Source: Crocinitomicaceae bacterium
GTDB lineage: Bacteria > Bacteroidota > Bacteroidia > Flavobacteriales_D > Crocinitomicaceae
Length of the DNA: 64,000 bases
Assembly: GCA_022447585.1 (NCBI GenBank)
Contig: JAKVAR010000108.1
Coordinates: 62,001-126,000 of the forward strand
Direction: 5' to 3'
Under the pieces are notes generated by a model that was not told the DNA's origin, ran no database searches, and was given only the letters and a program-made list of their open reading frames with translations. Of the stretch, positions 49,217-50,669 are shown one piece after another. Each line of letters begins with the position of its first letter. Position 1 is the first letter of the stretch. Both the position numbers and the translations under genes were made by a program.

Positions 49217-49351
49217 ATGCATAAAGACAATTCTCACATATCGAAAATTTTTCCAAAGCCAACAGCTGATGAATGGACCTGTAAGAAGAAAAAGTGTTGT
49301 AAAAAATTCAAAAAGAGTGGCGTGAATTGTAAAAAGTGTCCAAAACTATAG
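49217..49351 (+). CDS. Small lysine/cysteine-rich protein (44 aa)
   Basis: ATG to TAG encodes 44 residues: an N-terminal half (HKDNSHISKIFPKPTADEW) and a basic cysteine cluster TCKKKKCCKKFKKSGVNCKK ending CPKL. Five cysteines in the order C, CC, C, C suggest zinc binding, and the many lysines suggest nucleic acid contact. A consensus promoter box stands 20 nt upstream. From memory, similar short CCKKxKKxxxCxxCP proteins occur in other Flavobacteriales, but I could not check this. Function unknown. Confidence 0.65.
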   Translation: MHKDNSHISKIFPKPTADEWTCKKKKCCKKFKKSGVNCKKCPKL

Positions 49352-49428: not shown

Positions 49429-49770
49429 ATGGCTAAGAAAAAGAAATTAAACGTTGTATATTCGACAGATCCAGACTTCGATTATTCTTATGATGAAGAA
49501 CAGGAGGATGAGTTGCTGCCTTCTAATGAACAAAAGCTTTATGTTTCTATTGATCGTAAACGAAGAGCGGGGAAAGAGGTAACCATAGTGGAGGGCTTTG
49601 TTGGTCCTAAGGATGATTTAAAAGATTTAGCTAAACTGTTGAAAAGTAAGTGCGGTGTTGGCGGTGGTGCAAAAGACGGTGAAATATTAATTCAAGGGGC
49701 CTTTAAGGATAAAGTCTTTGATTTATTAGTTAAAGAAGGCTATTCGGTTAAGAAAAAGGGAGGGAATTGA
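49429..49770 (+). CDS. SUI1/eIF1-like (YciH) translation factor family protein
   Basis: A 113-residue protein with a lysine-rich N-terminus, an acidic linker (YDEEQEDELLPS) and the SUI1 domain: LYVSIDRKRRAGKEVTIVEGFVGPKDDLKDLAKLLKSKCGVGGGAKDGEILIQGAFKDKVFDLLVKEGY. The KCGVGGGAKDGEILIQG motif is diagnostic. Bacterial members bind the small ribosomal subunit and resemble eIF1, but are not essential in E. coli. Codons for FKDKVF (49701-49718) hold an 18-nt sequence repeated in the intergenic region downstream. Confidence 0.93.
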   Translation: MAKKKKLNVVYSTDPDFDYSYDEEQEDELLPSNEQKLYVSIDRKRRAGKEVTIVEGFVGPKDDLKDLAKLLKSKCGVGGGAKDGEILIQGAFKDKVFDLLVKEGYSVKKKGGN

Positions 49771-49894
49771 AAACAGGATGACCTGGTCTTACGCTTAAAA
49801 ATCGAAGTCAACCAATAAATCCGACAGAAAAATGATTGCGTAAAACCAGGCAACCTAAACCAAAAACAAACGAAAACTTTAAGGATAAAGTCTT
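49701..49894. repeat. 18-bp exact repeat pair linking SUI1 gene and downstream hairpin region
   Basis: CTTTAAGGATAAAGTCTT occurs at 49701-49718 inside the SUI1 gene and at 49877-49894 in the intergenic region. The element is itself nearly palindromic (CTTTA-AGGA-TAAAG). Confidence 0.85.
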
Positions 49895-50004
49895 CTATTC
49901 TACTAACCTAACTGGTCTAAAGATAGAACCTTTAACTTAAAGATTTCTAACAAAAATTTGAAGTGTGTTTATTATTGAGTTATCAGTAATAAAGACTCCT
50001 TTTG
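49774..50004 (-). ncRNA. Candidate structured small RNA antisense to SUI1 mRNA region
   Basis: No protein frame exists here. Hairpins follow one another: 49782-49794 with 49838-49850 (13 bp), 49807-49825, 49876-49891, 49914-49930, 49930-49942 and 49977-49998. In the outer stem and in 49807-49825 the non-Watson-Crick positions are G-U on a minus-strand RNA but A-C mismatches on a plus-strand RNA, which points to the minus strand. TATATTTG (50017-50010, minus) would start a transcript of about 230 nt. Its 3' end could form CAGG-UCAU-CCUG followed by UUUU. It matches no RNA class I know. Confidence 0.45.
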
Positions 50005-50009
50005 CGGTA

Positions 50010-50017
50010 CAAATATA
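50010..50017 (-). promoter_or_regulatory. Predicted -7 box for the candidate small RNA
   Basis: TATATTTG on the minus strand, exact consensus. The -33 element is weak (TTTC 23 nt upstream). Confidence 0.4.
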
Positions 50018-50107
50018 ATAATTTAACGGATTTAGTGATTGAAATACGGAATAACTGCAGTTTTATTAAATTTTTATTGCATTTATTCCTGCACACAGAA
50101 ATACTTT

Positions 50108-50115
50108 TATCTTTG
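50108..50115 (+). promoter_or_regulatory. Predicted -7 box of pyrR operon
   Basis: TATCTTTG, exact consensus, ends 5 nt before the ATG at 50121, leaving practically no leader. A clear -33 TTG is not at the usual distance. Confidence 0.5.
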
Positions 50116-50120
50116 TGTTA

Positions 50121-50669
50121 ATGGAACGACAAGTGATTCTTAATTCAAAACACTTTGAACTGACGATTAATCGACTTTGTTACCAACTCATTGAAATTCA
50201 TAACGACTTCTCGAATACTGTTTTAATTGGTTTGCAACCTCGAGGTATTAATGTTCTGACCCGAGTAAAAGAACGTTTGGAAGCTATTCTGGATAAAGAG
50301 GTTGTTTGCGGTAATTTGGATATTACGTTTTATCGTGATGACTTTCGAAGAAGAGATATACCGTTAATTCCAAGTGCAACTAATATTGATTTTGTCATAG
50401 AGAATAAAAAAGTTGTTCTTATGGATGATGTTTTATACACTGGGCGTACAATTCGTTCTGGACTCGATGCGCTACTCGCATTTGGGAGACCTAAGCAAGT
50501 TGAACTATTAACATTAGTTGATCGAAGATTTAGAAGGGATTTACCAATTCAAGCTGATTATGTAGGTAAAACGGTAGATACCTTGGTTTCAGAACGTGTT
50601 TCGGTTGAATGGAAAGAGATAGAAGGAGAAGATAAAATAGTACTTTTTACACCTGATGTGAATGGATAG
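50121..50669 (+). CDS. pyrR: Bifunctional pyrimidine regulatory protein PyrR / uracil phosphoribosyltransferase
   Basis: A 182-residue PRTase starting at ATG 50121; a GTG two codons earlier overlaps the promoter box. The PRPP-binding motif VVLMDDVLYTGRTIRSGLDAL and the early VLIGLQPRGINVLTRV, YRDDFRRR loops match PyrR. In Firmicutes PyrR binds pyr mRNA leaders in response to UMP. Here the gene heads an operon with pyrB, overlapping it by 8 bp, but the leader seems too short for a PyrR binding site, so PyrR may act elsewhere or only as an enzyme. Confidence 0.94.
   Translation: MERQVILNSKHFELTINRLCYQLIEIHNDFSNTVLIGLQPRGINVLTRVKERLEAILDKEVVCGNLDITFYRDDFRRRDIPLIPSATNIDFVIENKKVVLMDDVLYTGRTIRSGLDALLAFGRPKQVELLTLVDRRFRRDLPIQADYVGKTVDTLVSERVSVEWKEIEGEDKIVLFTPDVNG

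Follow-up and report, generated by a model that had tools for sequence, protein, structure and literature searches.

MicA, RybB and VrrA are stress-controlled, OMP-repressing small RNAs that act on the 5' regions of envelope-protein mRNAs, with sigma-E control and targets that carry Shine-Dalgarno sequences. The RNA described here, predicted from a window of 64,000 nucleotides (the whole stretch of DNA analysed, part of contig C11 of a Crocinitomicaceae genome of 4,475,083 bases), differs from them in its LytTR-like upstream site, in that no match to Hfq was found in its own genome, and in the Shine-Dalgarno-less starts with which it would pair. Start regions in Bacteroidota are A-rich and without Shine-Dalgarno sequences, according to the available part of the report (PMC6847099). 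GibS, a Bacteroides sRNA of 145 nt, represses by pairing at start regions, as stated in the accessible part of its description (PMC7366714). Compared by description and not by sequence, the predicted RNA resembles GibS in its phylum, its length of about 145 nt, its intergenic location, its terminator, its conserved, putatively single-stranded candidate seed and its predicted pairing with Shine-Dalgarno-less starts; on the other hand, the same part of that report places the GibS seed in the 5' portion and calls the two paired targets metabolic (PMC7366714), whereas here a U-rich linker joining two hairpins is the putative seed. Rfp18 of Flavobacterium psychrophilum is a conserved Flavobacteriales sRNA tied to metalloproteases; it differs in that its pairing is predicted through the third stem-loop and in that its loss lowers two target mRNAs, as far as the available portion of that report goes (PMC9723704).

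A predicted small RNA gene between SUI1 and pyrR

The SUI1 coding sequence (49429-49770, plus strand) and pyrR, for which we adopted the ATG at 50121 (the ORF listing has a GTG at 50115), enclose a gap of 350 nt (49771-50120). A reading made from the letters of the window alone, hereafter the sequence-only reading, had taken this gap to be non-coding, and the ORF list of the window indeed holds no ORF of at least 50 aa wholly within it. A Lys-/Cys-rich ORF of 44 codons (MHKDNSHISKIFPKP..CKKCPKL, read by eye) lies 5' of SUI1 at 49217-49351 on the plus strand. With the gap as DNA query, the syntenic gap was found in many genomes of the same genus, and SUI1 and pyrR were both present at 26 loci, the window included, of which the 25 with the exact core motif were aligned. 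Since these alignments (A1 and A2) were chosen for carrying exactly AAACCAAAAACAA, with L023 left out for lacking it and L027, L028, L030 and L031 dropped for having no SUI1 and pyrR, the invariance of AAACCAAAAACAA is partly due to selection, and diverged cores were later found by the model of the RNA, R1, in G012 and G024.

Both strands of 49771-50010 fold far better than their dinucleotide shuffles (z of -5.15 for minus and -5.66 for plus), and thus the fold z alone cannot pick the strand. When the two strands of each of the 25 sequences are compared, however, the minus RNA is the better folder in 24, window included, by a mean of 12.9 kcal/mol, the exception being L029. RNAalifold gives a terminator stem of 14 pairs, 12 of which have changes on both sides; in the window it forms the outer stem (49851-49838 with 49794-49781) of a terminator hairpin at 49781-49851 on the minus strand. 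Over the 25 sequences, 97.7% of the 344 cells of this stem are paired, compared with 25–44% when it is slid, and 43 cells are changed on both sides as against 12.3 in shuffles, none of 500 shuffles being as high. The same stem holds 53 G-U cells versus 4 A-C cells, and therefore the RNA is assigned to the minus strand, the strand that the sequence-only reading had already taken for the better-folding one.

From the model R1, alignment A2 and the covariation, the gene is predicted to occupy 49771-49915 on the minus strand, with a start at about 49913 as judged from the promoter box and a 3' end in a short U-run immediately past the SUI1 stop codon. R1 matches this copy (G000:C11:111771-111915) at E 3e-27, the window being among the model's own sequences. 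The predicted fold consists of hairpin 1 (GAAGACUUUA-UCCU-UAAAGUUUUC, 49872-49895, minus strand), a partly open linker and the terminator hairpin, in which an apical sub-hairpin with UUAUUGGUUGA (49802-49824, minus strand) is predicted; the UUAUUGGUUGA motif is missing from L014, L019, L020, L021, L025, L026 and L029 in alignment A2. In a permissive search, 26 of 31 homologues had a hairpin with 6 pairs or more immediately 5' of the core; its arms differ in sequence, and in L024 and L025, for example, both arms have changed. On the RNA strand, a T-run closes the terminator stem in most relatives, the run being weak in the window copy. The remaining stem-loops of the gap are within the promoter region, outside the RNA of about 145 nt. 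An ATG frame of at least 15 codons occurs in the RNA in only 5 of the 25 sequences and no ATG whatever in 13, so that there is no conserved small-protein frame.

Of the 34 genus genomes, 26 contain the RNA by R1 at E <=3.2e-8; a 27th (G024) matches at E 4e-4, with a core-like stretch and the terminator visible. No convincing R1 copy was found in the other seven (G001, G002, G011, G015, G023, G026 and G029), and the regions upstream of pyrR in G001, G002, G015, G023 and G026, as read, are without the core. There is one strong R1 copy per genome. Over the order, 43 of 399 genomes match R1 at E <=0.01, namely 25 of the same genus, 16 of other Crocinitomicaceae genera and two marginal ones in other families (G052, where the core is absent, and G075); Rfp18 is compared here by description, alongside only these two marginal matches outside the family. 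Six of the 16 loci from other genera were read (L062-L067); the box, the core and a recognisable form of the repeats upstream are kept in them, as is the hairpin in most, but their terminator stems are unrelated. An exact scan for the core in 84,980 species genomes gave 23 matches of its CG form and 32 of its AT form, three of the latter from the family; all 23 CG-form stretches, as read, show the surroundings of the RNA. In Taishania (L066, 1501-1590) the RNA is placed between two genes other than SUI1 and pyrR, one presumably mltG-like and the other presumably for a universal-stress-protein-like product. Another universal-stress-protein-like gene (L205) is among the best predicted core pairings in the window genome. 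A limited literature search found no description of a Crocinitomicaceae sRNA, and this sRNA gene, conserved in a family of aquatic bacteria, is apparently undescribed. The earlier suggestion of an undescribed structured RNA on the minus strand is borne out by its conservation and covariation, by the invariant promoter box and by the terminator, and on these sequence grounds the gene and its strand are well supported.

The promoter region and a LytTR-like site

A TAnnTT box stands at one alignment column in all 25 sequences, which in the window is TATCTTTA at 49918-49925 on the minus strand (49925-49918 in the direction of the RNA). The sequence-only reading had started an RNA of about 230 nt at a box further upstream, at 50017-50010 (minus strand); TATATTTG is present there, but as the main start it gives way to the conserved box about 90 nt further on, which shortens the RNA to about 145 nt. 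In the window TATATTTG has ACTAAATCCGTT at 50036-50025, and the ACTAAAYCGRTT element (region 50036-50010 of the window, minus strand) occurs in 12 of the 25 sequences, seven of them, the window included, having it together with TAnnTTTG. Because TATATTTG is accompanied by ACTAAAYCGRTT in these seven, a second, longer transcript is possible, and the two elements may represent a second promoter of the RNA.

In the LytTR consensus, direct repeats of [TA][AC][CA]GTTN[AG][TG] are separated by about 12 bp. At 49961-49987 on the minus strand, upstream of the conserved box, there are two direct repeats of the ACNGTT type, 21 nt apart, of which the window copy has 8 of 10 key bases (p 0.03 for this copy alone). 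A pair with at least 8 of the 10 key bases is found in 22 of the 25 sequences, at a distance to the box of 35 nt in 20 and 36 nt in two. These repeats have the spacing and position of the LytTR type but only partly fit the 9-base consensus, and the conserved TCAAT between them is outside that consensus; we treat them as a putative site. LytTR sites of Bacteroides have 11-bp repeats with an 11-bp gap, according to the available part of the report (PMC6193735), and the repeats bound by the LytTR protein AgrA have their centre near -60, a position comparable with the one here, as stated in the accessible portion of its report (PMC4227749).

The site written as GTTNANTCAAYN7ACNGTTNA has 17 occurrences in the 34 genomes of the genus versus one for the reversed control; nine of the 17 sit at the RNA itself, the source of the pattern, and eight lie elsewhere. 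By eye, three of these eight (L141, L145 and L146) precede orthologous exported-protein genes (MKLLITLLLSVAFSS..) and a TATCTTCG box, at a distance of 43 nt from the box, the spacing of the RNA's own site to its box being 33 when measured in the same way. One further site precedes another exported-protein gene (L147) and one (G030:C6, L143) is apparently inside a coding frame, both likewise judged by eye. The sites at L141, L145 and L146 perhaps mark a small regulon. A search for LytTR in the own genome gave 22 matches.

The U-rich core and its pairing with start regions

Between hairpin 1 and the terminator, at 49854-49877 on the minus strand, lies a conserved U-rich core, GUUUUCGUUUGUUUUUGGUUUAGG, which stands out in the alignments, in other genera and in duplex tests as a putative seed. 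Of the 29 exact matches of its CATTTG form outside the family, 27 lie antisense to an ATG followed by an open frame of at least 60 aa, mostly for MK.. exported or membrane proteins; 15 of the 29 come from one Flavobacterium gene, and the count calls for caution since CAUUUG in the core is itself an anti-ATG. Because these matches turned out to be starts, the pairing of the core with start regions was calculated for 343 ORFs, drawn from the window and from 400 kb of the own genome and taken as the longest ATG frames of at least 120 aa and not as curated starts. Over start windows from -20 to +12, the 24-nt core has a mean duplex energy of -8.34, which is reached by only 4 of 899 distinct dinucleotide shuffles; 3 of 899 equal its start-minus-coding difference and 11 of 899 its start-minus-upstream difference, and the energy profile peaks around the start codon. 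Moreover, 107 signal-like genes pair with the core better than the 236 others, by a difference that 2 of 899 shuffles reach. The apical segment (7 of 30 shuffles as low) and the 5' segment (13 of 30) show no start-region excess. For the 19 free nt of the core alone, 34 of 265 shuffles are as low in energy, 4 of 265 reach the start-minus-coding and 23 of 265 the start-minus-upstream difference; much of the pairing signal comes from the hairpin 1 arm.

Start regions of Flavobacterium johnsoniae are enriched in adenines from -14 to -11, and efficient starts tend to have A at positions -13, -12, -6, -3 and 0, according to the part of the report that was available (PMC6847099). In the register TAAACCAAAAACAAATG, the U of the core is opposite -13 to -11, -6 and 0 and not opposite -3. 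As a way to targets, the full-length core pattern failed: it has three matches in the own genome, one being the RNA itself, and the two non-self matches do not exceed the four of the reversed control. With the 23 non-self matches of a start-codon pattern over the genus these make 25, of which 15, as read, open a frame of at least 80 aa, mostly for MK.. exported proteins; since the start-codon pattern contains ATGAAAA, this result is circular and was not counted.

We infer the targets and the mechanism of the RNA as follows. A LytTR-family response regulator would switch the RNA on, the U-rich core would pair with A-rich, Shine-Dalgarno-less start regions (ACCAAAAACAAAUGAAAA-like), and this pairing would block translation initiation, mostly on mRNAs for exported and envelope proteins. 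The RNA probably tunes other proteins by pairing at message starts, and we give an even chance to the full proposal of a trans-acting, LytTR-controlled and family-specific sRNA of this kind, similar in action to GibS.

The main rival is that the U-rich core sequesters or scaffolds an RNA-binding protein, its complementarity to starts being a by-product of U-richness, which we regard as possible but doubtful. Such a role would suit a core that is kept as sequence and is moderately open by prediction, with a mean unpaired probability of 0.57 versus 0.41 overall. It would also suit the generic match in G023: no copy of the RNA was found in this genome, yet the window core fits its starts equally well (1 of 298 shuffles as low, 145 ORFs); the Taishania genome with its own core gave 7 of 300 (144 ORFs), and carriers and non-carriers were not discriminated by the start-pairing test. 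The G023 result means that the core suits start regions of the clade in general, by their composition; it identifies no targets and is not co-evolution. It weighs against our own proposal of start pairing, as do the weaker values for the 19 free nt, the only moderate openness of the core and the lack of an Hfq match. Against protein binding, the shuffles of equal U-richness rarely match starts as well as the core does, and the G-to-A variation of the core opposite the U of AUG preserves pairing: it is CGUUUG in the window, with a G-U pair, and CAUUUG, a perfect anti-AUG, in Taishania, L110 and L007/L121. Another reading, which we think unlikely, is a generic 'anti-Kozak' regulator, in which the core would read, rather than a few targets, the A-rich start consensus that replaces Shine-Dalgarno in Bacteroidota, and the RNA, governed by a LytTR sensor, would damp initiation for a whole class of mRNAs for exported proteins.

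SUI1, 6S RNA and the meaning of the conserved RNA

The sequence-only reading had proposed a cis-antisense RNA of SUI1, which would regulate this translation factor through an 18-nt complement that begins to pair by kissing loops. Its exact 18-nt complementarity was confirmed: CTTTAAGGATAAAGTCTT is present at 49701-49718 (plus strand), inside SUI1, and at 49877-49894, as part of hairpin 1, and the longest stretch that 1500 dinucleotide shuffles of the gap have in common with SUI1 is 15 nt, so that the sharing is beyond chance in the window genome. The RNA also faces SUI1; the two do not overlap on opposite strands (the modelled RNA ends at 49771, the coding sequence at 49770), but read-through into SUI1 is possible because the U-run of the terminator is weak in the window. 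However, the SUI1 copy is not conserved: the longest match between RNA and SUI1 is 7–10 nt in all 24 other orthologous loci, and the relatives keep the hairpin with other letters, the 18-mer being gone, an outcome that the sequence-only reading had itself listed as refuting its proposal. Furthermore, L014, L019 and L020 have about 700 nt between SUI1 and the RNA, with a lipoprotein-like ORF of 223–225 aa on the RNA strand, no SUI1 was detected in the fetched flank of L063 and L067, where pyrR is present, and the Taishania locus L066 has neither gene; the RNA is thus independent of SUI1. As start-region targets of the core, SUI1 and pyrR rank only 267 and 274 of 343 for pairing. Control of SUI1 by this RNA is therefore very improbable; its 18-mer copy is a coincidence or a local copying event, and SUI1 and pyrR are only neighbours of the RNA.

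A divergent 6S-type RNA of the family is equally hard to credit. The single strong copy per genome would fit it, as would the lack of any match to 6S-Flavo or 6S (RF01685, RF00013) in the own genome, where one of the searches shows little since its control was silent. The check for a known class in Rfam, however, gave nothing relevant at the gathering score in the window, at E <=10 around the gap or at E <=1 in 16 relatives, RF00013 and RF01685 included, and the folds of 25 sequences are two separate hairpins with no long rod with a central bubble closing both ends. The sole Rfam match at gathering score in the window is a SAM riboswitch (RF00162, 32855-32982, plus strand, 65.4 bits). That the gap is only untranscribed regulatory DNA plus a terminator is scarcely credible, since the 5' segment, the core and hairpin 1 are conserved between promoter and terminator, and are kept in the six loci read from other genera, whose terminator stems differ greatly.

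For an intergenic RNA gene, a promoter and a terminator of its own are present by sequence, with the weak U-run in the window copy. The proposed trans-acting sRNA would give a handle on base-pairing RNAs in Bacteroidota, which are without Shine-Dalgarno sequences and, here, without recognisable Hfq, and the conserved RNA offers an invariant promoter, a class of candidate activators and a putative seed that can be tested.
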